A stretch of DNA of 64,000 nucleotides, taken from Methylotenera versatilis 301 (GTDB taxonomy: Bacteria; Pseudomonadota; Gammaproteobacteria; Burkholderiales; Methylophilaceae). The position numbers were made by a program, and so were the translations under genes. Positions 2,438 to 59,376 of the stretch are shown piece after piece. Location: the NCBI RefSeq assembly GCF_000093025.1, contig NC_014207.1, positions 2,480,001 through 2,544,000 on the forward strand, written 5' to 3'. Each line of letters starts with the position of its first letter. The first letter of the stretch is position 1. Below the pieces are notes generated by a model. That model was not told the DNA's origin. It was given only the letters and a program-made list of their open reading frames with translations, and did no database searches.

Positions 2438-2566
2438 TAGTTATACTGAGTAAATATCTTTGTATTTTTAAGTTGCGAACAGCGTATACTTTCATAGGCA
2501 TGATGAAAATTAGCTACAATTAGTCTAAACTTAGTAAAAATTTCGCAAAAATTACCTACTTGAATT

Positions 2567-2582
2567 TGGCATAATGCTTGCT
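2567..2582 (+). promoter_or_regulatory. Sigma-54 (RpoN) type -24/-12 promoter for the heptose operon
   Basis: The sequence TGGCATAATGCTTGCT matches the -24/-12 consensus TGGCACG-N4-TTGCW at all but two positions. The spacing between the GG and GC doublets is exactly right. It lies 76 bp before the hddA start codon in the correct orientation. The match is read directly; its use is inferred. Confidence 0.65.
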
Positions 2583-2658: not shown

Positions 2659-3699
2659 ATGAATAACGACAATTCAACAATAAGAGCTAGAGCCCCCCTA
2701 AGACTAGGTTTAGCAGGTGGTGGGACAGATGTATCCCCTTACTCAGACGAATTTGGCGGTTTGGTCCTAAACGTGACTATAGATAAATATGCTTACGCAA
2801 CCATCATACGTCGTCTCGATGACCATGTGGAGCTGATTGCTGCGGATAATAATAATCGCTGGTTTGGTAAGATGTCATCTAAACTGGAACGGGTTTCTGG
2901 TGTAGATTTGCATGTGGGTGTGTACAACCGCATCATCAAGGACTTCAACAACAACAAACCGCTATCGCTCAGTATCATCACCCACTCCGAAGCACCTCCA
3001 GGCTCAGGTCTAGGCTCGTCTTCCACCATGGTTGTGGCCTTAGTACAGGCATTCTGCGAACTGCTCTCCTTACCGTTAGGCGAATATGAAATTGCGCAAC
3101 TTGCTTATCAAATCGAGCGTAATGACTTAGGCTTAACTGGTGGGAAGCAAGACCAATACGCAGCTACTTTCGGTGGCTTAAACTTTATGGAGTTTTATAA
3201 AGATCGCGTCATTGTTAACCCGCTTCGCATTAAGCCCCATATTAAAGCCGAACTAGAGTCATCATTAGTGCTGTTTTACACTGGCGTTTCTAGAGAGTCT
3301 GCTAAGCTTGTTGACGAGCAAACGTCTAATGTAAAAACCGGTGATGCTAAATATTTAGAGCCTTTACATGCAATTAAAGCGGAAGCCGTCAGTATGAAAG
3401 AAGCTATATTAAAAGCTGATTTCGATGCTTTTGCGGCTTCTATGCAGCATGGTTGGGAATCTAAAAAGAAAATGGCTAAGAGTATTTCCAACCCGATGAT
3501 AGAAGAGATCTATAATGCTGCTATTGCCGCTGGCGCTAAAGCGGGTAAGGTTTCAGGCGCAGGCGGGGGTGGATTCATTATGTTTTTTGTTGACCCAGCA
3601 CAACGCCCTTATGTGATGCGCGCACTTTCTAAATTTAACGGCCAAGTATCAACATGTAACTTTACTGATACCGGCACACAATCATGGAGAAAAGCTTGA
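2659..3699 (+). CDS. hddA: D-glycero-alpha-D-manno-heptose 7-phosphate kinase (GHMP kinase)
   Basis: HddA phosphorylates heptose 7-phosphate at C1 to give the alpha-1,7-bisphosphate, the second step toward GDP-D-glycero-alpha-D-manno-heptose. The three GHMP motifs are visible: APLRLGLAGGGTD at residues 12-24, the ATP loop PPGSGLGSSS at 113-122, and the glycine-rich GKVSGAGGGGF near residue 295. The length of 346 residues is normal. Galactokinase-like sugar kinases share these motifs, but the neighbours GmhA, HddC and GmhB fix the substrate as heptose. It is first in a tight operon, overlapping gmhA by 16 bp, behind a sigma-54-type promoter. Confidence 0.88.
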   Translation: MNNDNSTIRARAPLRLGLAGGGTDVSPYSDEFGGLVLNVTIDKYAYATIIRRLDDHVELIAADNNNRWFGKMSSKLERVSGVDLHVGVYNRIIKDFNNNKPLSLSIITHSEAPPGSGLGSSSTMVVALVQAFCELLSLPLGEYEIAQLAYQIERNDLGLTGGKQDQYAATFGGLNFMEFYKDRVIVNPLRIKPHIKAELESSLVLFYTGVSRESAKLVDEQTSNVKTGDAKYLEPLHAIKAEAVSMKEAILKADFDAFAASMQHGWESKKKMAKSISNPMIEEIYNAAIAAGAKAGKVSGAGGGGFIMFFVDPAQRPYVMRALSKFNGQVSTCNFTDTGTQSWRKA

Positions 3700-25923: not shown

Positions 25924-26643
25924 TTATGTCGCAGCTAAAATAGTTTTCTGACTTTTAGGCAGACTTAATAACAACTCTCTAAGAAAGTTTTCTTGCTTTT
26001 CATAGGCTGTGACAGCTGAGGCGGGATCGCTAATTGCAGTTGAAGCTCGAACTAACACACCATCTAGAACCTTACCTTTTAAACCATCGCGTAATATTTT
26101 CAATCGCGCTGACATGCCACCTGCAGGGTAATCATCACCGATTCTTACCCAATAGCTGACTGTTTCATAGCGGTTTTGATTACTTACTAGCAAGCGTAGT
26201 GCTTTTATAGGCTTTGCCGCTGACATGTTAATTGTGTTATTGGTTTTGTTAAGTAATTGAAACCCTTGAGCGACATAACAAACTTCGGGGCGATGAATCT
26301 TAATATCTTGTTTTTGTTCACGAGCATAGGCAATGGCTAGCATGACTCTATCGCCACTATTATTGGCGTAGGTGCGCATCACAATTTTGTCATAGAGTTG
26401 GCTAGCTAGATCATTACCCCCAGTAGTCAAACCAACTTGTGTAAACGGATCTGCTATCTGTTTCCACTCTCCAAATTCCACTGGGATGATAGTGTCTAGA
26501 TCTGGCGTAGCATCAACTACATGTATGGTAGGCGTTAATTTAACGGCAAATAATGCCGCCGAAATCAGAAGCACTGCGACCAGCACGCTTTTTCTTTGAG
26601 TTATTTGTGGAAAAATGAACATGCAAACTTTCATCATGCTCAT
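25924..26643 (-). CDS. epsI: Exosortase-associated protein EpsI
   Basis: EpsI is the usual partner of exosortase in EPS loci, either fused to it or encoded next to it. This 239-residue protein has one N-terminal membrane segment (about 18-36) and a periplasmic domain. That domain carries the family's IPVEFGEWKQI near residue 50, HRPEVCYVAQGF near 119-130 (with the conserved His and Cys) and YWVRIGDDY. The gene starts on the exosortase stop codon (TGATG overlap), so the two are coupled. Its biochemical role is not established; it may help polymer export or protein processing. Confidence 0.9.
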   Translation of the reverse strand: MSMMKVCMFIFPQITQRKSVLVAVLLISAALFAVKLTPTIHVVDATPDLDTIIPVEFGEWKQIADPFTQVGLTTGGNDLASQLYDKIVMRTYANNSGDRVMLAIAYAREQKQDIKIHRPEVCYVAQGFQLLNKTNNTINMSAAKPIKALRLLVSNQNRYETVSYWVRIGDDYPAGGMSARLKILRDGLKGKVLDGVLVRASTAISDPASAVTAYEKQENFLRELLLSLPKSQKTILAAT

Positions 26644-27503
26644 CAGCCCTTAAGCGCTGCAACTGAGCGCCTTTCTAATTTACTTGAGATGTATCTTAAT
26701 AAGCTATCAACACCAATAATCAGCATTAAAGCCGTCATAAATAGAAACATGCCTGAAAATTGATGGGCGAAGCCTTGCCCTGCCTCATCACCCCAATAAA
26801 ATGTGATCAGCGCGAGTACGATGACTCTGGTGACGTTAGATGCGAAAGATATCGGTACAATCAATGTGGCAAGCAGGGCATTACGCATGGGCGACTCATG
26901 TCTCATCACGTTCATATAGAGTAAGCCTAACGCCTCTAAAGTAAATAATGAGTTTAAACCCGCGCATGCATCAGCAACTAACAGCTGATACTGTCCGATA
27001 TAGATGATTACCCCATTTCTAGCGACCGGATAATCCATTTGATACAGCAAGTGCTCAGATGCATAAGAAACTGCCATCTTCATTGGCTGCGTAATAATAT
27101 CAATAACAGAGGGTGGCAACGGCACCATAAAACACAAGAAAAAGAATGCAAACCAAAAATGCTTAGCAACACCCGTACCAAAAAAAATGAGTGTTAAAGC
27201 GAGTAATACAACCACCAATGAACCTACCTCAAATATATAAAGTGATTGAGATCTTCCAATGGCATAAAGTACGCAGCCAATCACTAAAACAGGCCAACCT
27301 AGCCTTGGAGCAGGAATAACAGGAATTCTAGTGCTGACTAGTAGCTTAGCTTTATAGTAAAAAAACCACAGCGCTACTGCAAATACAATTGGCCCATGCG
27401 CTTGTTGATCTGTTTTCCAAATACCATGAAATAAGTCATAAAATGTGGGAACATAAACGACTAACAAACCAAGCAGTATTGTCAGCAACGGCAATACCGG
27501 CAT
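26643..27503 (-). CDS. xrtB: Exosortase B, PEP-CTERM sorting transpeptidase
   Basis: This is an integral membrane cysteine protease/transpeptidase that recognises the C-terminal PEP-CTERM signal and processes the protein during export. The sequence of 286 residues has about eight membrane segments. The catalytic triad is Cys180 in ADACAGLNS, Arg226 in SNVTRVI and His247 in FAHQFSG, all intact. It matches EpsH of the methanolan cluster and the B-type class by its EpsI and EpsA/B/L neighbours. Three PEP-CTERM proteins in this window (36.8, 37.5 and 62.1 kb) are likely substrates. epsG lies 103 bp upstream. Confidence 0.93.
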
Positions 27504-27606: not shown

Positions 27607-28488
27607 TTAGAAGTCGTTAACTACAGCCCCAACAATTTGAACGCCAGCAAGCGTTAACTGATCGCGAATGTTAGTTAAATCTGACAGTCGCGTTTGATTG
27701 AGTCTTGATGTTAGCAATGCACCTTCACAGCGACTCGCGACTGTTTGCGCATCAGAGGTCTCAACGGCGGGCGCCGTATCAACAATCACTACATCATAAT
27801 GTGCGGTTGCTTGTTTCATAAACTCGACAAAGTTTGAACGGCTTAATAACTCTTGTGGGTTTGGTGGCACCGTACCGGCGCCCAACACCGTTAAATCTAC
27901 AAATGAATCTACTTTCTTCACAACTTCAAGACCTGCACGACCCACTAAAATATCAGAAAGTCCTCTAGATTCGTTTAAGTTAAAAATCTTATGTTGAACA
28001 GGCTCTCTTAAATTGGCATCAACGAGTAAGGTCTGCTCACCCAATTGAGAAAACACCACGGCTAAGTTTGCCGCTAAGTTACTGCAACCATCACCTGAGG
28101 TAGCAGAGACAATCGCTAAGGACTTATAACCTTCATTAAACCAACGAAGTATTAACTGACTTCTTAAAGCTCTAAGCGCCTCTACCTGTTTAGAAAAGGG
28201 CTTGTAAGCAGCAACAAGCTCTTTACTAAATTGACCTTGATTAGGCTGAAGATAAGGGTAATCAAATTGCAATGACAGTACTTGCTTAATATCCGCCTCA
28301 GTAATTAATCCAAGCTTTTGAGCAGCATCACCAAAGCGGATATTCTCTGCTTTTTGCAATCGAAGTACGCGCTCAGCATCTTCTGGCTTTATCTTACCTA
28401 AATCAAGCAACAACTTACCGATACTTGAATCGGCTTTGCGACCATCATTTTGCACTAATTGCTCTTTATCCACGTTAATATCACCCAT
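27607..28488 (-). CDS. epsG: EpsG, chain-length-associated BY-kinase-like protein
   Basis: EpsG is the cytoplasmic ATPase partner of the Wzz-like EpsF. Residues about 20-85 form a small helical domain like the N-terminus of type II secretion and pilus ATPases (LLLDLGKIKPEDAERVL...FGDAAQKLGLI). Residues about 100-293 form the tyrosine-kinase-like ATPase: SATSGDGCSN in the Walker A place, LLVDANLREP (Walker A') and VVIVDTAP (Walker B). Walker A lacks the canonical lysine, with Cys in its place, and no C-terminal tyrosine cluster is visible. Autokinase activity is therefore doubtful. EpsG relatives share the first feature. Confidence 0.9.
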   Translation of the reverse strand: MGDINVDKEQLVQNDGRKADSSIGKLLLDLGKIKPEDAERVLRLQKAENIRFGDAAQKLGLITEADIKQVLSLQFDYPYLQPNQGQFSKELVAAYKPFSKQVEALRALRSQLILRWFNEGYKSLAIVSATSGDGCSNLAANLAVVFSQLGEQTLLVDANLREPVQHKIFNLNESRGLSDILVGRAGLEVVKKVDSFVDLTVLGAGTVPPNPQELLSRSNFVEFMKQATAHYDVVIVDTAPAVETSDAQTVASRCEGALLTSRLNQTRLSDLTNIRDQLTLAGVQIVGAVVNDF

Positions 28489-28494
28489 ATATTT

Positions 28495-29898
28495 CTAATT
28501 AGAAGTAAGCAATTTTCTTGCTTGCCCTAGCAATAAGTTTTCATTCGTCTTTGTGCTATTGCCCTCAATCACGGCAAATACTGGTACGCCTAAAATGATA
28601 GAAATATCATCTCTACCGCGAACACGTCTATCCAATAGCTCTGCAAATAGTCCAAAGCCTATGCCCAGCACTAGTCCAACAAAGGCACCCAAAACTATAT
28701 TTAGCAAAACTCTTGGGCTACTAGGGCTGGTAGGAACGATGGCGGGATTTAAAATGGATATATCATTTTGATTTGATTGTCCTTCTATACTCGTTTGACT
28801 AAAGCGCTGGGTCACAGCATCCATAGCTTTCTTCGCAACTTCCACATCTTTCTGCAGAACGCTCATTTCATCTCTCAGCCGATTTAAGCCTAATACCTTC
28901 TTCTTTTGACTTTCAACTTGAGAGCGAAGTTGTGCCTCGCGTTGCTGGTTGATGCTAGCTGAGTTACCAATACTATTTGATAAACGCTGAGCCTCTTCAT
29001 GCAGCTGACTTCTAATTTTATTAGCTTCGCCTTCAGCAGATTTATAAGCAGGGTGATTTTTACCCAAACGCTGACTTAACTCTGCCAATTTAGCATCTGC
29101 GCGAGCAGACTCAGACTTTAGACCTTGTATTGTTGGGCTGGATGCAATATCAGGCGAATCCAACGAACTTCTCTGGGCATTTGCACTGCGTGATTGGGAG
29201 TCTATCGAAGCAACTTGTACCATACTCAACTGCCCAGACAACTCATTCAGCCTCATGTTTTCTATATCTAAGTTTTGCTCAGGATTAGTAATACCTTTTT
29301 CTTGCTGATACGCTGACAATCTTGACTGCGCCTGCTCTAAATCATCTCTTAAAACTTTAACTTGCTGTCCAAAATATCCAGCAGCTTGCTGAGCTGGGGC
29401 AACCTTTAACTGTGCACTAGTTTGTTGATAGTTTTCGGCAAATGAATTTACTGCAACAGTTGCAAAATTAGGGTCAGCGCTATTAAAAGAGATTTCTATA
29501 ACGCTACTCTCCTTCGATGGCTTTACACTTAAATTTTTCAGCAATAAATCTGCTAACCAATTCCTAATATCACCAGAACCTTTACTAGCTTGTCTAAACT
29601 GTGTCTGCGCTTGCTCAGATTTATCTAGCCCTAGCTGATTAACAACTTTCAATGCAATATTTCGACTTTGTATAATATCATTCTGAGTTGCCATATAACC
29701 TGGCATTAACTGTGCAGGCAACACCATGCCAGTTACTGGATCCATGCCTTTATAGTTGAGTAATAACGAGGTTGTTGCAGTGTAGCTCTTGGACAGCAAT
29801 AAAGTAACTACAGTTGCAGTTGATACTGTAATAAGGAAAGTAATTAAAATAACTTTATAACGAGCCTTTAATATCAATAAAAATTGAAGCAAATTCAT
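28495..29898 (-). CDS. epsF: EpsF, Wzz-like chain length determinant
   Basis: This 467-residue inner membrane protein sets polymer length. Membrane segments lie at about 14-35 and 400-420, with a long periplasmic coiled-coil region between them rich in Gln, Ala and Ser (about 160-370). The proline-rich AIVPTSPSSPRVLL before the second segment is the Wzz signature. The cytoplasmic tail (after RRVRGRDD) would contact EpsG, whose gene starts 6 bp downstream. The operon order epsE-epsF-epsG matches the methanolan locus. Confidence 0.92.
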   Translation of the reverse strand: MNLLQFLLILKARYKVILITFLITVSTATVVTLLLSKSYTATTSLLLNYKGMDPVTGMVLPAQLMPGYMATQNDIIQSRNIALKVVNQLGLDKSEQAQTQFRQASKGSGDIRNWLADLLLKNLSVKPSKESSVIEISFNSADPNFATVAVNSFAENYQQTSAQLKVAPAQQAAGYFGQQVKVLRDDLEQAQSRLSAYQQEKGITNPEQNLDIENMRLNELSGQLSMVQVASIDSQSRSANAQRSSLDSPDIASSPTIQGLKSESARADAKLAELSQRLGKNHPAYKSAEGEANKIRSQLHEEAQRLSNSIGNSASINQQREAQLRSQVESQKKKVLGLNRLRDEMSVLQKDVEVAKKAMDAVTQRFSQTSIEGQSNQNDISILNPAIVPTSPSSPRVLLNIVLGAFVGLVLGIGFGLFAELLDRRVRGRDDISIILGVPVFAVIEGNSTKTNENLLLGQARKLLTSN

Positions 29899-29906
29899 AA
29901 ATATCC

Positions 29907-30980
29907 CTAAAATAGACTTTCTTCAACATACAACACATCATTTGCTTTAATCAAGTCAGTCAACTTAGGTACTACCTTTTCTATAACGCCAGCATCATTA
30001 CGGCGCATTAATTTAATATTGCGTTGCGTACCACGCACGGTTGGTCCACCACCTTGAGCTAAAGCCTGCACTACGGTCATATTTCGTTCGACTCTATAAC
30101 TGCTTGGACGTTGTACCTCACCGTAAATATAGTACACGGGTGCACGATGCACATAGATTTGGTCATTCGCAACGACATATATATCTTCAGTAGATTCATT
30201 GGATAGAAAAAGTCCTGCAACATCAAATTCTTTTTTAAATGGTTGCCCATCGCGCATTCCAGTAACAACGACAGAATCTGACGCACTAGGAACCATACCA
30301 CCCGCCATTGCTAGCGCATCTACAAGCCGCATTTTCACGCCATCTAAAGAGAACCTGCCTGGACGCAACACCTGGCCTATAATTGAAACCTGATTTCCAG
30401 GCGTAATGTAAATCACATCACCATTACTTACCAGAACATCTTCTGCTTTTTTATCTCCAAGAAATAGTGAAGCAAGATCAACCTCATATTTATAGGGCAG
30501 TCCGTCACGCATTCCAGATAAAACAGCCATCCCGTTTCCTGCATTGAGTGTTACTCCGCCAGCATTTGCTAAAACATGGCTAAGCGGAATGTTCGATGTT
30601 TCAAGTGGGAAACGTCCAGGCCTATTTACCATACCCAATACAGCCACTTGATTACCTCGGACTTGCAACAGTACGATGTTAACTTGCGGCTCTTTTACAT
30701 ATCCGCCTTTAATAAGCGCCTGAGCGATTAATTGCTCTGCTGTTTGAATGCTCTTTCCACCAACATTCACTTCACCAATTAAAGGATACGTCACTAACCC
30801 AGTACCTGAAACTCGCGTTTCAGTTGTTAACTCTGGATTCTGAAAAACATTAATGCGAATCGAATCGCCAGCACCAAGTAAATAGTCTTGCTTACCCTCT
30901 GCTTTAGCTATGTTATTAACCGACATGATTGTCAAAAACAAGCCTATTACAGTGATGAATCTTAAAAAACGTAGTTTCAC
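29907..30980 (-). CDS. epsE: EpsE, Wza-like polysaccharide export protein with three SLBB units
   Basis: This 357-residue periplasmic/outer-membrane export protein has a signal peptide (about 1-27), a Poly_export domain starting YLLGAGDSIRINVFQNPELT, and three tandem SLBB repeats. The repeat unit is visible twice: SGMRDGLPYKYEVDLASLFL and TGMRDGQPFKKEFDVAGLFL are about 85 residues apart, each followed by a GxVxRPGRF/SSY strand. It probably forms the channel through the periplasm and outer membrane together with EpsL. It ends 9 bp before epsF. Confidence 0.93.
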   Translation of the reverse strand: MKLRFLRFITVIGLFLTIMSVNNIAKAEGKQDYLLGAGDSIRINVFQNPELTTETRVSGTGLVTYPLIGEVNVGGKSIQTAEQLIAQALIKGGYVKEPQVNIVLLQVRGNQVAVLGMVNRPGRFPLETSNIPLSHVLANAGGVTLNAGNGMAVLSGMRDGLPYKYEVDLASLFLGDKKAEDVLVSNGDVIYITPGNQVSIIGQVLRPGRFSLDGVKMRLVDALAMAGGMVPSASDSVVVTGMRDGQPFKKEFDVAGLFLSNESTEDIYVVANDQIYVHRAPVYYIYGEVQRPSSYRVERNMTVVQALAQGGGPTVRGTQRNIKLMRRNDAGVIEKVVPKLTDLIKANDVLYVEESLF

Positions 30981-31020
30981 GATATGTCCTTGAATAAAAA
31001 GTTATAAGATCTAATCATGC

Positions 31021-31971
31021 TTATTTTAAACCTGCTACACCAGCTTCAATTGTTGAGTCTTTCTTTGACTTCTTTTGCTCTTCAGTAAGATTTGATGCAG
31101 CTTCTGTTTTATCACTTGTTACTTTTGTTTGGCTACCCTCAGACTGAGTTGCAAAAGCACCTAGATACTCAATTTTGGCTTCTTGACGAAATTTTTTGAT
31201 TTTATCTTCAACAATTTGCTTGCCACGCGTATTGATAAAGTAATTTTTAATCATTGGAGTAGCTTCGGTCAAACCCACTGGAGACTCTTCAATACTAGTT
31301 AATTTGATAGCATGAGCAATATCACCTGACTGCCAAACAAACATATCACCATCTTTTAGCATCTGCATTTTAGGTAAAATATCTAACGGTAGCTGTTCCG
31401 CAGGTCGGGTAAATGAGCCACTTGAAAACTTAATACCTTTAGCTTTAAGACTCTCTGCAATATCCATCATAGACTTCTGAGCATTCACATTTTCTTTTAA
31501 CAACTCAAGTGTCTGCTCATTACTTTGAGTGCTGATATCTTGTAAATTGTATATACGACGCTTAGAAAACAGCTCTGTATGCTCGTCGTAATACTTTCTA
31601 AACTCGCTATCATTTATTTCTGAGGAGTTAGCCAACATCTTTTTCAAATAGGCTCTTGCTAATATTTCTTTTTTAGCAGCTTCTATCTCTAAAATGACAT
31701 CCGGTGTTCTGTCCAAGCTTTCTTTGCTTGCTTTATCTAGCACAAGTTGCTGATCAATCAGCTTATCTAAAGCTTTTTTTCGAAATTCTGAAACGTTTTC
31801 TGCAGTTACGTTCTGTGCACTCTTCATCACAGAATCTATTTGATGCGTTGTAATTTCTACGCCGTTCACTTTAGCGGCTATTTGTGAGTTCGCAACCTTC
31901 TCACTACCTTTACCACACGCAGCTAAATTACAGAAAATAACAACTAGACTAAGTTTTAGAATTTTATTCAT
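31021..31971 (-). CDS. epsD: EpsD, peptidyl-prolyl isomerase family lipoprotein
   Basis: This 316-residue exported lipoprotein has the lipobox LAAC at residues 17-20. A SurA-like N-terminal domain (VNGVEITTHQIDSVM) is followed by a PPIase-like segment around residues 125-215. EpsD proteins of exosortase-linked EPS loci probably act as chaperones for the export channel. The C-terminal 45 residues are charged, low-complexity Ser/Thr/Lys/Glu and look disordered. It lies between epsL and epsE. Confidence 0.85.
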   Translation of the reverse strand: MNKILKLSLVVIFCNLAACGKGSEKVANSQIAAKVNGVEITTHQIDSVMKSAQNVTAENVSEFRKKALDKLIDQQLVLDKASKESLDRTPDVILEIEAAKKEILARAYLKKMLANSSEINDSEFRKYYDEHTELFSKRRIYNLQDISTQSNEQTLELLKENVNAQKSMMDIAESLKAKGIKFSSGSFTRPAEQLPLDILPKMQMLKDGDMFVWQSGDIAHAIKLTSIEESPVGLTEATPMIKNYFINTRGKQIVEDKIKKFRQEAKIEYLGAFATQSEGSQTKVTSDKTEAASNLTEEQKKSKKDSTIEAGVAGLK

Positions 31972-31995: not shown

Positions 31996-33243
31996 TTAAA
32001 AAGTAAGTTGTCCATTGAGTCCAACCGTGTTTGATGAAAAATCTCTATCAGCAAAATTTGAGTCTCTCTCATCATGTTGCAAATTAATACCAAACCTCAT
32101 GGTACTTCTTGGCACCCAAGTAGCCTCAACACCATACGTAATTCCATCATCAACCCTAGTGGACGTTGCTAAGTTTGTTAAAGGACCGTCACCAAGGAAC
32201 TTCCTTTTGCTCACCGAAGCATAACCTCCTAGCACTACTTTTGAAGTTAAAGCCCAAGTTGGCTTTATGCTTAATACGTCGTTAACTGTATAGCTGCTAG
32301 TGAAGTCTTGATAAGATGCAAGCTTTCTGGTCACATCAAAACCTATATTTAGTTTTGCGCTAGCATCCCAAGAATAATTAAAACCTCCAAAATACCCAGA
32401 GAAATCTCGCAAAACATACGTATCATCCGCATGAACATTATGCCCTAAATTAGCAGTTAACTTAGATTTACCGGACAACTTCCATAACGCACTTAACTCT
32501 GCTTCATTTTCAGAAAAATCTTTACCAATTTGATTCGGAAGATTAATTTCCTGATTCTCACCATTTCTTTTGCGTAACTTTAATGCAATAAAACTGTCAG
32601 ACGGGAATGAATACCTTACACCAACTTCCCCTCCATTAAGTTTGAAACTGGTTTCTTGTAAAAATGTCTGACTGTTGACACTTTCGAGCTTAGTGTAGCC
32701 CCCCAGTAAATGCCAAACATTATGTGGGGACCAATCAAAATTAAACATTTGCATTTCAATTGTACGTATATTTTGCGCATTTGAGTTTCTATTATCAAGA
32801 AACGGTATCAAATCAACATTGCGTTCCGATGACAAGTTCCCTCTTAAACTAGGAGTTAGCGACCAAAGCCATACAGCTTTATAATTATTAGAGTTAAAGT
32901 TTAAAAAATCGGCATTCTCATATTTATTATCAATATGAGAATAATCAAACTTGAACTCTTGTAGCGAATATTTCTTATCTACTTTAATACCAAAATTTGT
33001 TTTCAGTACATTATCAGACCGCTCGGCTCCTCCGCCTGGGTTTTGTCCATCCGGCAACAAAAACAAATTATCATAATGTCTATAATCGGCACCTATCAAA
33101 AAATTGATTGTATCGTCACTATCTGCGTAAGCCGAAATAGTTGCGAATTGACACAACAGCCAAGAAGCGACTAAAGTAAATTTCAACAACGCATTTTTAT
33201 TGTGTCTGCACAACATAAAAGGGGATTTAAAGCGATGCAACAT
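31996..33243 (-). CDS. epsL: EpsL, outer membrane beta-barrel of the XrtB-associated EPS system
   Basis: This roughly 415-residue outer-membrane protein has a signal peptide (cleavage after SAYA), then alternating amphipathic strands with many aromatic ends, finishing FSSNTVGLNGQLTF with a terminal Phe. The pattern fits the EpsL beta-barrel family, proposed as the outer-membrane exit for polymer. The start is uncertain: a GTG at 33252, ATG at 33243 and ATG at 33216 are in frame, and none has a strong ribosome site. I give 33243. The beginning overlaps the end of the cyclic-nucleotide-binding gene, so the two are coupled. Confidence 0.85.
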   Translation of the reverse strand: MLHRFKSPFMLCRHNKNALLKFTLVASWLLCQFATISAYADSDDTINFLIGADYRHYDNLFLLPDGQNPGGGAERSDNVLKTNFGIKVDKKYSLQEFKFDYSHIDNKYENADFLNFNSNNYKAVWLWSLTPSLRGNLSSERNVDLIPFLDNRNSNAQNIRTIEMQMFNFDWSPHNVWHLLGGYTKLESVNSQTFLQETSFKLNGGEVGVRYSFPSDSFIALKLRKRNGENQEINLPNQIGKDFSENEAELSALWKLSGKSKLTANLGHNVHADDTYVLRDFSGYFGGFNYSWDASAKLNIGFDVTRKLASYQDFTSSYTVNDVLSIKPTWALTSKVVLGGYASVSKRKFLGDGPLTNLATSTRVDDGITYGVEATWVPRSTMRFGINLQHDERDSNFADRDFSSNTVGLNGQLTF

Positions 33244-33781
33244 ATAACCCACTAGACAGATCTACTTTTGACTCAACAATCGCTTCGCGAAGCCTAATAC
33301 TCATAGTCTGCAATAAAGTGAGTAAGAGTTTATTGCCTAATCGAGGCATTTGCAAAAGAACATCATTTAATGTTTCACGAGTTAAAACAGCAAAATCCGT
33401 TGGCAAAACTGTGACACAACTGGCAAATCTTGGACACCCATCTATCATAGACATCTCACCGAGAGTAGCACCCACACCAACTTGCGATATTAATTTAACC
33501 TCCCCACTTGGAATAGTTTTAGTAACCTCAACATTGCCCGTTAATATTAATATTAAGTAGTCGCCAGCATCACCTTCTTTAAGCAAGGTTATACCCTTGG
33601 GCGCCGCATAGCAATGCATCAACTGACACAAAGTCCTTACTTCATCAAGGCTAAAAGCCTCAAAAAGTTTAATATCTTCAATTATTTCAAAAATCTCTTC
33701 TTCATATTGATCTGCCCCGCCTAAATAAACCAAGTCTGGATGCAACTCCATAATTTCTCTTTTCATAATTTCATTTAGCAC
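33227..33781 (-). CDS. Stand-alone cyclic-nucleotide-binding domain protein
   Basis: This 184-residue protein has a single CRP-like cyclic-nucleotide-binding fold. LLKEGDAGDYLILILTG is the first conserved turn, and the phosphate-binding cassette LGEMSMIDGCPRFASC keeps the Glu and Arg. There is no C-terminal helix-turn-helix, no kinase and no membrane segment, so it cannot act as a normal CRP regulator. It heads the minus-strand export operon, overlaps epsL, and is divergent from epsA. It may sense cAMP or c-di-GMP and control export by protein contact. That role is inference. Confidence 0.85.
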   Translation of the reverse strand: MLNEIMKREIMELHPDLVYLGGADQYEEEIFEIIEDIKLFEAFSLDEVRTLCQLMHCYAAPKGITLLKEGDAGDYLILILTGNVEVTKTIPSGEVKLISQVGVGATLGEMSMIDGCPRFASCVTVLPTDFAVLTRETLNDVLLQMPRLGNKLLLTLLQTMSIRLREAIVESKVDLSSGLYVASL

Positions 33782-33842
33782 CCAAAGTTACTCTAATACT
33801 GGGACAAGCCTTGCCAAGTTTCACCATACAACATTTGTAACT

Positions 33843-33848
33843 ATTATA
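33843..33848 (-). promoter_or_regulatory. Possible -10 element of the EPS export operon
   Basis: A perfect TATAAT reads on the minus strand about 62 bp before the start of the cyclic-nucleotide-binding gene. The -35 position (about 33865-33872) is poor and falls inside the oppositely directed sigma-54 site. The promoter is weakly supported. Confidence 0.4.
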
Positions 33849-33860
33849 GTAGATAAAAGT

Positions 33861-33876
33861 TGGCACGTTTAATGCA
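33861..33876 (+). promoter_or_regulatory. Sigma-54 (RpoN) type -24/-12 promoter of epsA-epsB
   Basis: The sequence TGGCACGTTTAATGCA matches TGGCACG-N4-TTGCW with one mismatch (A for the first T of TTGC). The spacing between GG and GC is exact. It lies 118 bp before epsA in the right orientation. RpoN with the PrsK/PrsR system is known to control PEP-CTERM/EPS genes in other exosortase bacteria; use here is inferred. Confidence 0.7.
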
Positions 33877-33993
33877 TAATACGCACTGCATCTATTAATT
33901 TTACAAAGTATTACCATTCAAAATATTTCTGTTTGATAATATAACCTTTAAACATCACTTTCAATAGTCCGAATGCATCTATAACCAAATATA

Positions 33994-34821
33994 ATGACTG
34001 CTGAAAGGGTTTTTCCACTTGAAAAGAAACCTTACATGATAATAGAAGAGCATTTAATGAATAGGCGTGAGTCAGGACTCAAGAAGCTCATTCAAGAGTC
34101 TTTGCATATTCGTTCACATGTTGAGTTGCTATTTTGGTTGCAAGGCGATTTCCAACGCTATATTCCTCACGAAGTAATGATTGCTGCTTGGGGTGACTTC
34201 TCACTGGGAATAGTATATGTTGATATTGTTTCAGCACTTCCTGGTGTTAGAACTGGTAAGATTTCCAGCAAAAACTTAACGGCACTATTACAAAGTCTTT
34301 TTAAATATTGGCTTGAAAATTCCAAGTCGCCTTTCACCCTCAACGTAGATAAAGGTATATTTCACGAGCACGAGTTAGGCTGTATTGAAGCTAATATTAA
34401 CCTACAAAAAATGAAATGTGCTATCGTTCATGGTATAAAAGATTTTAGGGGCGGACATGACTGCTTATATGTTTTCATTAATGCTTCAGCTAGAATACTT
34501 AATCGTACCAGTAAGATGATGCCAGTGTTTCTGCCCTACATCGATTCGGCTCTAAGACAACTAGAACACCTGCCTGAGCAACTTCCAGTTGTGCAATCGA
34601 TACAGAACGAATCAGAAAGTGAATTTATTGATATACTCTCAGACAGAGAGTCCGAAATTATGCTTTGGGTTAAAATGGGTAAAACCAATCACGAGATAGG
34701 AATGATACTTAACATCAGTGCATTCACTGTTAAGAAACATTTGCAGCGTATTTTTAAAAAATTAGATGTTTTAAATCGAGCGCAAGCTGCCACAAAATAT
34801 AATCGAATATACCAATCTTAA
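33994..34821 (+). CDS. epsA: EpsA, LuxR-type regulator of the XrtB-linked EPS locus
   Basis: This 275-residue transcription factor has an N-terminal sensing domain (about 20-190, containing HVELLFWLQGDFQRYIPHE, typical of EpsA proteins). A C-terminal LuxR/FixJ helix-turn-helix spans about 210-270: LSDRESEIMLWVKMGKTN then INISAFTVKKHLQRIFKKLDV. No phospho-receiver Asp pattern is visible. It probably activates EPS and perhaps PEP-CTERM genes. Its stop overlaps the epsB start by one base. It is preceded by the sigma-54-type promoter and divergent from the export operon. Confidence 0.9.
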   Translation: MTAERVFPLEKKPYMIIEEHLMNRRESGLKKLIQESLHIRSHVELLFWLQGDFQRYIPHEVMIAAWGDFSLGIVYVDIVSALPGVRTGKISSKNLTALLQSLFKYWLENSKSPFTLNVDKGIFHEHELGCIEANINLQKMKCAIVHGIKDFRGGHDCLYVFINASARILNRTSKMMPVFLPYIDSALRQLEHLPEQLPVVQSIQNESESEFIDILSDRESEIMLWVKMGKTNHEIGMILNISAFTVKKHLQRIFKKLDVLNRAQAATKYNRIYQS

Positions 34822-36263
34822 TGAGCAATAAAAACCAACTTCCTCTCGTTCGTAAAGCATCAGGCATTAGACTAGCACGCGACAACATTCTTTCAATAAC
34901 AGAGTCACTAACAGACCCATTAGTAGCAGTTATCGGATTATGGGCAGTTGCTTTTATTCAAGAAGGCCAACTAAGCCCAATATACCTTTTCCTTTCACTG
35001 ATTATCTTTTTCCTCTCGTATCCAGGGGAGTCCAAACTAAGTCTCCCGATCAACAAGGCTGTAATGAATATAGTCTTCACTTGGATTATGCTATCCTCAT
35101 TGCTGATACTCTTTGCGTATACCACTCGTTACATGTATTTGTTTTCCACTCAGACTATTGTTTTATGGGTGGTTCTAACACCAATCATGCAAATACTTGC
35201 ACTACTGCTTCTTAGAAGCATAGCGCCACTTATCATGACACTTCAAGGCCCCGTTAAGCAAGCTGTAGTTGCTGGCATTAATGAACAGAGCATCGAGCTT
35301 GCGCTTAGATTAAATGATACGAAACTTCAATCCACGAATATTATCGGATTTTTCGAGGATCGAACTTTAAAGCGTGTTGCGGAAAATACGGACATCGACG
35401 TATTGCTTAACGGCAATATTGGCGTTTCAATTCTAGGAAAAATCGATGAATTGGCTGATTACATTAAAACGCATCAAGTTAATGTAATCTATTTATCCCT
35501 GCCAATGTCTGGTCACCCGCGCATACTTAAGTTGCTTGACGATCTTAAAGATACTACGGCTTCAATTTATTTTATCCCTGATATCTTCATGACAGACCTG
35601 ATTCAAGGACGCATGGGGCAAATTGATGATATTCCTGTTGTTGCTGTATGCGAAACACCGTTCACAGGCTTTAATGGCGTTATCAAACGCACAGCAGACA
35701 TTGCATTTTCATTAGCAATACTCATATTGATACTGCCAATACTTATTATTATTGCAATCGGCGTTAAGTTAAGCTCACCGGGACCAGTTATTTTCAAACA
35801 ACGCAGATATGGTCTAGACGGAAAAGAAATACTTGTCTATAAATTTAGATCAATGTCTGTTTGTGAAGACGGTGGCGCAGTGACTCAAGCAACAAAAAAT
35901 GATCAGCGCGTTACAAAGCTTGGCGCCTTCCTACGCAAATCATCCCTAGATGAATTACCACAGTTTATCAATGTACTCCAAGGTCGCATGAGTGTAGTTG
36001 GGCCACGCCCACACGCTGTTTCTCATAATGAAATGTATCGCAAGCTGATCAAGGGCTATATGATTCGTCATAAAGTTAAGCCGGGTATCACAGGATGGGC
36101 TCAAGTGAATGGATTACGCGGAGAGACAGAAACACTGGATAAAATGAAGGCACGTATTGATTTTGACTTAGAATATCTCCGCAATTGGAGTCCTAAATTA
36201 GATATATACATTGTGTTTAGAACTGTAAGCGTTGTATTTAAGGGGGAGAAGAATGCTTATTAA
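34821..36263 (+). CDS. epsB: EpsB, undecaprenyl-phosphate glucose phosphotransferase
   Basis: EpsB starts repeat-unit synthesis by moving glucose 1-phosphate (or another hexose phosphate) from the UDP-sugar to undecaprenyl phosphate. The 480 residues show four to five N-terminal membrane segments (to about 135) and a CoA_binding_3-like middle domain (about 145-265). The C-terminal bacterial sugar transferase follows a membrane segment: [40 protein letters not shown] and [17 protein letters not shown]. All signature residues of the WcaJ type are present. It is the last gene of the epsAB operon. Confidence 0.93.
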
Positions 36264-36846: not shown

Positions 36847-37350
36847 TTATACAGATTTACGACGGCGCGCTACAAAACCCATTAAACCCAAACCTGCAAG
36901 CATCATGCCATATGTTTCTGGCTCAGGAACAGCTGAAACTGACAATGTACCTGCATATTTTGCAGCACCAACACTAGTACCAGCAATATGCAAAGCATAG
37001 CTACCTGATAATGTTGAGCCATCAAAGTAACCAAAACTAGCTTTTGATCCGTCAAAAACTGTTCCAGCAATCACCGTGACATGAGTGATGGCATCAACAA
37101 GATCAAAGCTTGTAAAAGAAATACTTTTGCCAAATTTATCAGCTACTGAACCAGATAGAGTGCCGATTAAATCACTAAACGATAGTGGTAGTGGAATGTA
37201 GTCATCTACGGAACCAGTAAAATGACCTGTAAATGTGTAACCATCTGAAACCGCAACTGCGGTATCTACTGTTGCACTAGCACTTGTTGATAAAGAAGCT
37301 GCAACTAAACCAGCAGCTAAAACTAAAGTTCTTAACTTTAAAGATTTCAT
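36847..37350 (-). CDS. PEP-CTERM protein, 167 residues
   Basis: This exported protein has a Sec signal peptide (about 1-27, ending SASA). Its C-terminal PEP-CTERM sorting signal is VPEPETYGMMLAGLGLMGFVARRR: PEP motif, hydrophobic helix and basic tail. The mature part is about 115 residues, rich in Ser, Gly and Thr, has no cysteine and looks like a beta-sandwich. It is a likely substrate of XrtB, encoded 9 kb away. Its function is unknown. A terminator lies directly downstream. The upstream region has no strong promoter that I can read. Confidence 0.88.
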   Translation of the reverse strand: MKSLKLRTLVLAAGLVAASLSTSASATVDTAVAVSDGYTFTGHFTGSVDDYIPLPLSFSDLIGTLSGSVADKFGKSISFTSFDLVDAITHVTVIAGTVFDGSKASFGYFDGSTLSGSYALHIAGTSVGAAKYAGTLSVSAVPEPETYGMMLAGLGLMGFVARRRKSV

Positions 37351-37507
37351 GATATTACCCCTAATTAAATATTAAAAAATTAAACCGAAAATACTGTTGA
37401 ATCTAACTTTTTTAAAACCGACAAAAATTGCTATAAAACTTAATCTCACTGAAAACCATTAGACCTTATTAGCTGTTAGCGAACAATAGTCCATACGTAC
37501 TAAGCTA

Positions 37508-38248
37508 TTAAGCTTGCTTATTTCTACGTGTCATAAAGCCCACACCCAAAAGACCGATCAGCATCATGGCGTAAGTTTCTGGCTCTGGCACTGCAGATAC
37601 ACTAATCAAAGTGAAATCAGATTGATTCGTACATGAACCACCCGCCTTGCCACATACACCAGGAAGCGCAGTGAATGAGAGCGACTTAACACGAACATTA
37701 CCAAACGGGTCACTAATACTCCAAACGCCACCTTTGCCATCTTCAGCCTTGCTTAAATTCACAAAACTACCTAAACCCGTCCAAATACCGGTAGTTTTTC
37801 CCGTAGCTGTAAATGTAAAGCTGTGCACTGAATTATCGAAATACGTTGCGGTAATCTGCGCTTTTTCATTCACATCACCGTATTCTGGACCATCAAACAA
37901 TAAACCCAATGTGAAGTTTTTAATGAATATACTATGAGAAAAACTGGCATTAACAGACTCACCAATATCAATCTCTCCAGGTGTTCTTTCTGAACCAGAC
38001 TTTGGAGAAACGCCTACACCTTGATAGCCATCTTGTGCAGGCTTATAACTAAATTTACCATCACTTGCACCTACTTTTGCAGAGAAAGTAGTGTTAATAT
38101 CACCTAGGAAAGTCGTTGAGTAGCTGCTACCTGTACCGAAATTTGTACCGTAGATAGTGTTGAAAGTGTTGGCTGTAGCGTTGGCTGCTAGCGATGTGCT
38201 TGTTAAAGCGGCTAATAAACCCAATTGTATAAGTTGACGTGTTTTCAT
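37508..38248 (-). CDS. PEP-CTERM protein, 246 residues
   Basis: This is a second exported PEP-CTERM protein, with a signal peptide ending NATA (about residue 26) and the C-terminal signal VPEPETYAMMLIGLLGVGF followed by MTRRNK. The mature domain has alternating beta-strand-like segments and a Cys pair (VCGKAGGSC) near residue 200 that may form a disulfide. It is expected to be processed by XrtB and displayed or released into the EPS. It lies 157 bp upstream of the smaller PEP-CTERM gene on the same strand. Tandem palindromes about 100 bp upstream suggest dedicated regulation. Confidence 0.88.
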   Translation of the reverse strand: MKTRQLIQLGLLAALTSTSLAANATANTFNTIYGTNFGTGSSYSTTFLGDINTTFSAKVGASDGKFSYKPAQDGYQGVGVSPKSGSERTPGEIDIGESVNASFSHSIFIKNFTLGLLFDGPEYGDVNEKAQITATYFDNSVHSFTFTATGKTTGIWTGLGSFVNLSKAEDGKGGVWSISDPFGNVRVKSLSFTALPGVCGKAGGSCTNQSDFTLISVSAVPEPETYAMMLIGLLGVGFMTRRNKQA

Positions 38249-38520
38249 GATTCATCCAATATTTAGCAAGTTTGTGAAAAGCATCTAATTAGTTTTAGCC
38301 TGCTTTAAGTACAACCACATATTACTAAATTGGATTTATTCGACAATAGCCCGTTAGTACTAACGACAATTGTCCGTTAGTCCATTAGTACTAACGGCAT
38401 GAAATTTGTGTGAGATTCACATCGATTTAGCGCCATTTGCATCAATACTCGAGCCAAATAAAATCAACATTTACTGCAGCTTAAGTATTTAATATATTTA
38501 TTTCAATTAATCCAATCGAG
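38249..38520. other. Intergenic region between a PEP-CTERM gene and ctaB
   Basis: This holds the tandem palindromic operators at 38351-38397. No sigma-54 site with correct spacing was found for the PEP-CTERM gene, and I see no clear terminator for ctaB. Confidence 0.6.
38351..38397. promoter_or_regulatory. Tandem palindromic operators before a PEP-CTERM gene
   Basis: The core TTAGTACTAA occurs at 38354-38363 and again at 38385-38394, 31 bp apart or about three helical turns. The first is part of the perfect palindrome CGTTAGTACTAACG. The second ends in CTAACGG and pairs with CCGTTAGT at 38374-38381. The layout is that of a cooperative repressor or activator site. EpsA is a candidate binder. 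Confidence 0.65.
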
Positions 38521-58320: not shown

Positions 58321-59376
58321 ATGAAAGACCATTTCAATCGTTTTCCGATTATCGATGCATTTAAAGCCATTGCTTCCCAGTTTATTGTTTTACATCACCT
58401 TGCCGCTTATGGCCCGATTTCAGATGCTGTGCAACAAATAGCGCCATCACTCATTACTTGGCTGTATGACTATGCACGGATGGCAGTGCAGATATTTTTT
58501 GTCATTGGCGGCTATCTTGCAGCGCGATCTGTTTTCAATAGTGGGAATAGCATCCGCCATTTACAAGTGAATCTAACGAATCGATATTTAAGATTAGTGA
58601 TTCCATTCTTTTTTGCACTGGTACTTGCCATCCTTTGCGCTGTCATCGCACGCAATCTAGTGGATCATGAGTTTATTCCAGACTTTCCGAAGCTCTCTCA
58701 ATTTTTGTCTCACGTATTGATGCTGCAAGGTGTTCTGGATTTTGACTCACTCTTAGCAGGCGCATGGTTTATTGCAGTTGATTTTCAACTGTTCTTTGTG
58801 ATGCTTTGCATTAGCTGGCTTGGCGGGAAAGCGGCTAACTCTAAAAAGACAATTCTGATTATTATCACGCTTACAGCCGCCGCCTCTCTATTCTGGTTCA
58901 ATCGTCACGAACGTTATGACGACTGGGCAATCTATTTTTTTGGTGCATATGGTCTGGGCGCAATCGCTTACTATGCGGGTCAACGGGAGCATTCAAACGC
59001 ATGGCTTTGGTTAAATATATCAATTGCTATGACTGCAATTTTGATTGATTTCAGGTTGCGTATTCTGATTGCTGCACTGACCGCACTCGCTCTATTTTTT
59101 ACTCGAAATGTGCATATCAAAGCGTATGTAAAACAACAAAGATTTATTCATTATTTAGGTTCGATTTCCTACGCTCTGTTTCTTGTACATTTCTCTGTTT
59201 TAATGTTAGCTAATGCAATTTTTAGCTGGCTAAACCTAAAAAACTCATTGCTAGCTTGCCTTTTTATGCTGCTCACATGGGCTGCCAGCCTAGTCCTTGC
59301 AGACTTATTTCATCGCAAAGTTGAAAAACCAACGACCTTATATTTAAAACAGAAAGTGCATAAAAATAAAGCCTAG
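58321..59376 (+). CDS. Membrane acyltransferase family 3, separate from the EPS block
   Basis: This 351-residue integral membrane acyltransferase has RFPIIDAFKAIASQFIVLHHL at the N-terminus and VQIFFVIGGYLAARS in place of the usual FFxLSGF. It ends in a basic tail. It is a single gene 20 kb away from the EPS locus, preceded by a 163-bp region with no clear promoter. The terminator overlaps its stop codon. It could decorate LPS, EPS or a lipid. Confidence 0.82.
   Translation: MKDHFNRFPIIDAFKAIASQFIVLHHLAAYGPISDAVQQIAPSLITWLYDYARMAVQIFFVIGGYLAARSVFNSGNSIRHLQVNLTNRYLRLVIPFFFALVLAILCAVIARNLVDHEFIPDFPKLSQFLSHVLMLQGVLDFDSLLAGAWFIAVDFQLFFVMLCISWLGGKAANSKKTILIIITLTAAASLFWFNRHERYDDWAIYFFGAYGLGAIAYYAGQREHSNAWLWLNISIAMTAILIDFRLRILIAALTALALFFTRNVHIKAYVKQQRFIHYLGSISYALFLVHFSVLMLANAIFSWLNLKNSLLACLFMLLTWAASLVLADLFHRKVEKPTTLYLKQKVHKNKA

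Follow-up and report, generated by a model that had tools for sequence, protein, structure and literature searches.

A conserved, predicted sigma-54 promoter before epsA and a palindromic box at PEP-CTERM genes point to possible two-stage control of matrix genes in Methylotenera

How are the matrix genes of an XrtB-type exosortase system controlled, and at which level does sigma-54 enter? The PEP-CTERM system was defined in 2006 in a paper whose available portion states that more regulators and DNA motifs were still to be found (PMC1569441). We address the question in Methylotenera versatilis 301, whose genome is a single contig of 3.06 Mb, through a stretch of 64,000 nucleotides (the window). 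A gap of 212 bp separates 2 divergent genes: that of a cyclic-nucleotide-binding protein on the minus strand and the epsA open reading frame (ORF), which begins at 33994 on the plus strand. Leftward, the cyclic-nucleotide-binding gene is followed by epsL, epsD, epsE, epsF, epsG, and the genes for exosortase XrtB and EpsI; rightward, epsA (TIGR03020) and epsB are followed by 2 PEP-CTERM genes on the opposite strand (Table 1). The scores of XrtB (353.9 bits), EpsA (263.9 bits), and EpsL (352.4 bits), all over their cut-offs, place the locus among the XrtB/EpsA exosortase systems.

Table 1. Features of the epsA region and its surroundings, in window positions.
Feature	Position	Strand	Remark
Predicted sigma-54 -24/-12 promoter of epsA-epsB	33861..33876	+	predicted transcription start ~33887
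Predicted epsA leader	33887..34035	+	from predicted start, aligned relatives
epsA, LuxR-type regulator	33994..34821	+	TIGR03020; conserved start probably 34036
epsB, undecaprenyl-phosphate sugar transferase	34821..36263	+	TIGR03023
-35 TTGAAA of proposed export-operon promoter	33959..33964	-	promoter scan, conserved layout
-10 TATTAT of proposed export-operon promoter	33936..33941	-	predicted start ~33929
Half-conserved copy of box TAGTCY-N4-RGACTA	33965..33980		adjoins export -35
Cyclic-nucleotide-binding domain protein, first gene of opposite unit	33227..33781	-	
epsL	31996..33252	-	
Export genes epsD, epsE, epsF, epsG	27607..31971	-	
Exosortase XrtB (TIGR03113) and EpsI type B	25924..27503	-	
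First PEP-CTERM gene	36847..37350	-	
Box upstream of first PEP-CTERM gene	37487..37502		top-scoring box of window
Second PEP-CTERM gene	37508..38248	-	
Box upstream of second PEP-CTERM gene	38347..38362		
Further box upstream of second PEP-CTERM gene	38378..38393		

The sigma-54 -24/-12 consensus is TGGCACG-N4-TTGCW. An earlier note on this DNA had described a near-consensus site before epsA, and the description holds: TGGCACGTTTAATGCA, at 33861-33876 on the plus strand, has a single mismatch, an A instead of T preceding TGC, and its GG/GC spacing is canonical. The 118 bp given there as the distance to epsA applies to the longest ORF, which starts at 33994; the epsA ORF of 3 close relatives begins at the position matching 34036, and with that start the distance becomes about 160 bp. 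Within the window, the exact pattern TGGCACGN5TGCW occurs once, at this site, and matches with at most 2 mismatches are not enriched (38 vs 31.4 expected). The whole genome holds 7 exact matches: 1 lies inside clpA, and 6 are intergenic and shortly upstream of genes, namely glnA, glnK-amtB, a pilin-like and an SfnB-like gene, an ORF of 479 aa that has no NCBIfam match, and epsA. With at most 1 mismatch, 165 matches are found, vs 47 for a reversed-pattern control. A scoring matrix weighted by hand after this consensus gives the epsA site 17.36, the second rank in the window; among 64 window genes, a score of at least 15 within 300 bp upstream was found for epsA and 1 sugar-kinase gene.

Two other matches in the window score comparably. 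TTGGCATAATGCTTGCT at 2566-2582 (plus strand; 16.3) lies 93 bp upstream of a GHMP sugar-kinase gene (2659-3699) and is a second sigma-54 candidate. The top score of the window, 17.7 at 36895-36911 on the minus strand, falls near the 3' end inside a PEP-CTERM gene; no gene start is listed shortly after it, and it is probably a chance match.

The epsA site recurs in place among relatives. It is found upstream of epsA in 6 Methylotenera loci, the window included, and in 1 locus of another genus. When the window is aligned with its 3 close relatives, 11 of the 16 site columns are invariant, including TGGCAC and TGC, compared with 21 of 77 just upstream. The distance to epsA is 145-147 bp in the distant Methylotenera loci L073 and L074 and 67 bp in L037, the locus of the other genus. 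We extended the comparison to 59 EpsA loci from genomes that are related and hence not independent; 3 more loci (L070-L072) were left out because they probably come from the genomes of L067-L069, with identical sites. A score of at least 15 upstream of epsA, for which chance expectation is 0.0035 per 300 bp, was reached in 10 of the 16 loci with an adjacent epsB. The other 6 are L075 and L090 (14.6) in the same family and L041, L042, L043, and L049 in other families, where the ORF start, and hence the searched stretch, is unsure in L041 and L049; L075 has no sigma-54 site although it belongs to the EpsA clade of the window. Loci without an adjacent epsB reach this score in 6 of 43 cases: 5 (L083, L085, L091, L092, and L093) form 1 paralogue group of the genus, and in the sixth, L055, the site lies 307 bp upstream. 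No sigma-54 site was found at the 3 other EpsA genes of the M. versatilis genome that exceed the family cut-off (L097, L145, and L146). On an EpsA tree that excludes rows below 60 bits and lacks several second EpsA copies, the presence of the site changes 6 times, vs 14.3 in shuffles. From these site counts, sigma-54 control of EpsA genes appears recurrent in the family, not universal.

Together with this positional conservation, the presence of 1 rpoN gene (a single TIGR02395 match in the genome, 436.3 bits vs a cut-off of 277.35) and of glnA and glnK-amtB among the other exact sites supports the RpoN control of epsA-epsB that had been proposed earlier. We conclude that 33861-33876 is very probably the sigma-54 promoter of epsA-epsB. 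The conserved leader gave no sign of an RNA element (fold z-score -0.48) and no Rfam match, the stretch holding 3 weak matches elsewhere. Other EpsA groups of the genus (L083, L085, L091, L092, and L093; L080, L081, and L098) likewise carry sigma-54 sites, 0-66 bp upstream of the start of the longest ORF.

What faces this promoter from the other side? A promoter scan gave TTGAAA-17-TATTAT on the minus strand at 33964-33936, with 10 of 12 letters, as the best of 6 matches (1.9 expected). It sits within the epsA leader, where conservation across the gap is highest (45 of 48 columns invariant in 33935-33982). Its layout, GGACTA followed directly by TTG and, 17 bp on, a -10-like hexamer, is shared by 7 of 8 loci (the window, L067, L068, L069, L073, L074, and L037) and absent in L075. 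Across the 6 Methylotenera loci, the 2 promoters would face each other: transcription for export is predicted to start to the right of the predicted sigma-54 start, and the predicted transcripts overlap by 13-43 bases; in L037, the predicted promoters stand apart. Judged from this layout, RpoN and the export operon may affect each other. An effect of RpoN on both directions, suggested by the earlier note, is thus possible by another route than the -35 overlap given there.

Beside the export -35 lies a core, CAATAGTCC, that is invariant in 6 aligned loci and led us to the palindrome TAGTCY-N4-RGACTA (the box). A leader 20-mer considered as a repeated operator was dismissed, being single-copy in the genome. 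Exact boxes number 7 in the M. versatilis genome: 1 before galE, 1 before a glycosyltransferase gene, 4 before 3 PEP-CTERM genes, and 1 inside a coding ORF. Assignment of boxes to genes covered 46 of 56 exact sites, in 11 genomes. Just upstream of a PEP-CTERM gene stand 29 of the 46; a further 8 are at galE (2), glycosyltransferase genes (4), galU (1), and epsA (1); and the remaining 9 fall within genes or stand next to unnamed or unrelated ones (among them hflX, uvrD, and a topoisomerase gene). The box was discovered in a single genus, from which most of its counts also come, but the matrix test used sites of other species only: built from 16 sites of 7 other species, the matrix gave scores of at least 8 to 7 of the 16 PEP-CTERM genes of M. 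versatilis, the other 9 lacking such a score, and to 0 of 61 other window genes. The best of the top 4 boxes of the window is at the first PEP-CTERM gene, 2 are at the second, and 1 is inside an ORF (59287-59310); the epsA leader has a half-box only (33965-33980), ranked 38 in the window.

The half of the box nearest the gene often continues into TTG. Past this half, -10-like hexamers are most frequent at 22 and at 43 bases (0.0055 and 0.002 singly, 0.061 as the best of all offsets, with L171 and both L173 boxes left out); the spacing agrees weakly with that of an activator. In other families of the order, exact or near-exact boxes occur close to the EpsA genes of L043, L053, L054, and L059, and the range of the box may be wider than the genus.

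Which protein reads the box? EpsA has a LuxR-type (GerE-type) helix-turn-helix, the only region of the protein that matches solved proteins, and a short dyad operator is expected of this type of domain. The predicted structure of EpsA, with a mean pLDDT of 39.7, was unusable. The distribution of boxes follows the type of EpsA: in a grouping made after the box counts were seen, every genome of the genus with a window-type or L097-type EpsA has the box (11 of 11), vs 5 of 41 others. The type was judged in G234-G236 from EpsA matches and loci, and in G235 additionally by L173 on the tree. Copies number 48 vs 11 of the reversed pattern in the 11 genomes and 8 vs 34 in the 41; since the totals over 52 genomes are 56 vs 45, it is the concentration in genomes with these 2 EpsA types that is telling, not the total. 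Among genomes of the other group that have PEP-CTERM genes, 3 of 9 hold a box. At a plain EpsA cut of 210 bits, 11 of 13 genomes above it and 5 of 39 below have the box; the 2 exceptions above it, G231 and G232 (17 and 15 PEP-CTERM genes), hold no exact box. G231, G232, and G233 all combine 11-17 PEP-CTERM genes and EpsA genes with the absence of an exact box. We infer EpsA as the candidate reader of the box. Neither EpsA as a PEP-CTERM regulator nor the box was reported among the literature matches listed, a search whose scope lay mostly outside subscription journals.

These elements can be assembled into a model of 2 stages, which we consider fairly probable as a whole: RpoN and an activator would fire epsA, and EpsA would act on matrix genes through the box. 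In the first stage, RpoN-RNA polymerase would wait at 33861-33876 until an enhancer-binding activator other than PrsR fires epsA-epsB. In the second, EpsA would bind copies of TAGTCY-N4-RGACTA that coincide with a sigma-70 promoter or precede it; the targets of EpsA would be the PEP-CTERM genes, some sugar genes, and perhaps, through the half-site, the divergent operon for export and exosortase. Where the export and sigma-54 promoters face each other, as in Methylotenera, activity at either is expected to disturb the other, as their predicted transcripts overlap. The sequence itself shows a conserved promoter, a box with its set of genes, and the association of that box with EpsA types; to these the model adds RpoN at work in the cell, EpsA as the presumed binder, activation rather than repression as its likely action, and interference between the promoters. 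More tentatively, RpoN control in XrtB systems may lie one level up, passing via EpsA to a dispersed matrix regulon (the export and exosortase operon, PEP-CTERM genes, and sugar-precursor genes, with the palindrome at their sigma-70 promoters), while in Methylotenera the facing promoters would check each other.

A less likely arrangement keeps the promoter and gives the box to another LuxR-type regulator, with EpsA controlling something else. Candidates are available, as each genome has several (in M. versatilis, 11 TIGR03020 matches at E 0.001, of which 4 are over cut-off), and 2 distant EpsA clades accompany the box. It fits poorly, however, with G236, where there is 1 EpsA match at E <1e-40 and 4 of 4 boxes are at PEP-CTERM genes, and with G201, where a full box stands upstream of epsA itself. 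Quite unlikely, in our estimate, is that EpsA reads the box as a repressor, shutting the export operon and the PEP-CTERM genes when RpoN switches epsA on: the half-site abuts the -35 region, a symmetric site would overlap it, and a repressor could sit there, but a centre near -43 and the second -10 peak some 21 bp on resemble activator spacing, although this signal is weak.

We return to the model in which EpsA activates, and to its first stage. The earlier note had placed the sigma-54 site across the -35 region of the opposite operon, with TATAAT at 33843-33848 as the -10. This hexamer is present as letters on the opposite strand and kept in L068, but 2 of the 3 close relatives, L067 and L069, have lost it, no credible -35 accompanies it, and it is not among the matches of the promoter scan. 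Given the poor -35 and this loss, TATAAT is rejected as the export promoter, TTGAAA-17-TATTAT at 33964-33936 being both better and conserved, and the overlap is very improbable. A chance resemblance without function is very improbable: about 12 equally good sites are expected somewhere in the genome, yet only 0.0004-0.0009 on both strands of the 212-bp gap, and the site is conserved in place in related loci.

The activator in the model would differ from the PrsK/PrsR pair, which the earlier note had mentioned for exosortase systems of other bacteria. Such control is published elsewhere: sigma-54 motifs precede 99 of 167 PEP-CTERM genes of proteobacteria, and an enhancer motif stands about 63 nt upstream of the sigma-54 sites, according to the sections of the paper available (PMC1569441). 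The scheme does not carry over to the XrtB system studied here. No PrsK match was obtained at E 1e-30 in any of the 12 family genomes searched. PF00158 has 12 matches in the M. versatilis genome, 8 of them full activators, of which 1 is a full NtrC; none of the 8 reaches the PrsR cut-off (502.6 bits; best 409.1). By eye, 33782-33860 contains no TTTACA, the sequence with which the published enhancer motif for PrsR ends. The proposed matrix scan for RpoN sites supported epsA and went against the PEP-CTERM genes, since 0 of the 16 in M. versatilis have a sigma-54 score of at least 15 within 400 bp; the best, 13.82, is on the wrong strand. By their upstream sequence, the PEP-CTERM genes of M. versatilis do not resemble RpoN-controlled genes. 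Among relatives (28 loci, 2 of them without an ORF and 3 with less than 100 bp upstream), 1 of the 26 PEP-CTERM genes read scores at least 15. Joint firing of epsA and the PEP-CTERM genes by a PrsR-like activator is therefore scarcely tenable, even though PrsR is the best-scoring NCBIfam model, below cut-off, for one activator, L016. The single site among relatives, in L191 of G232, looks perfect (22.17) and lies 86 bp upstream of its PEP-CTERM gene; direct RpoN control of PEP-CTERM genes may exist elsewhere in the genus.

Neither the 8 full activators nor the upstream sequence yielded an activator or enhancer site tied to the epsA promoter. An NtrC-type enhancer pattern matched 33701-33861 with 4 mismatches at best. 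L016 (1808190-1809635 of the genome) is a sigma-54 activator with a VpsR domain and a candidate for matrix control. For L016 as partner of the epsA promoter, co-occurrence is uninformative: of 55 genomes, 46 have a match of at least 63% identity, and the majority of these 46 lack a known sigma-54 epsA.

The closest tested parallel, by the accessible part of its description, is the RpoN-BerB-BerA-Bep cascade of Burkholderia cenocepacia, with a regulator of another type (PMC5552954). There too, a sigma-54 promoter precedes the gene of a regulator that acts on exopolysaccharide genes in a second stage, and it lies far from the start codon (173-196 bp before it in Burkholderia). BerA responds to c-di-GMP, whereas EpsA is LuxR-type without a known ligand, and an exosortase/PEP-CTERM regulon is not described for the Burkholderia system in that part of the source (PMC5552954). 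The predicted promoter before the gene of the second-stage regulator is thus in place at epsA, and EpsA would be the matrix regulator.

Other systems share single elements, as far as their sources were available in part. The PrsK/PrsR scheme also employs sigma-54 in an exosortase/PEP-CTERM system; there it acts on PEP-CTERM genes directly, whereas here those sites are lacking and PrsK was not found (PMC1569441). In Aquincola tertiaricarbonis, pepA is RpoN1-dependent and has a mapped -24/-12 promoter; this is likewise a promoter of the PEP-CTERM system, but RpoN1 acts directly on the PEP-CTERM gene, and the exopolysaccharide genes seemed RpoN1-independent (PMC9850573). Desulfovibrio vulgaris DVUA0057 resembles the proposed EpsA as a regulator of dispersed PEP-CTERM genes; it differs as a response regulator that binds the PEP-CTERM targets itself and is not a LuxR-type second stage (PMC3333781).

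The XrtB branch thereby gains candidates for 3 roles: an operator, defined in sequence and in the genes it accompanies; its reader, EpsA; and a master switch, RpoN at epsA. All 3 are testable in a methylotroph where PrsK was not found. If the model is true, the matrix of such bacteria is under two-stage control, as in Burkholderia Bep.

Second messengers appear at the margin of the locus. For c-di-GMP there are hints only: the VpsR domain of one activator and an N-terminal MshE-type c-di-GMP-binding motif in EpsG (27607-28488), which at 38.6 bits is just over its cut-off of 38, so that export may sense c-di-GMP. A protein consisting only of a cyclic-nucleotide-binding domain is encoded divergently from epsA in 2 genera (33227-33781 in the window; 458-1090 in L037).
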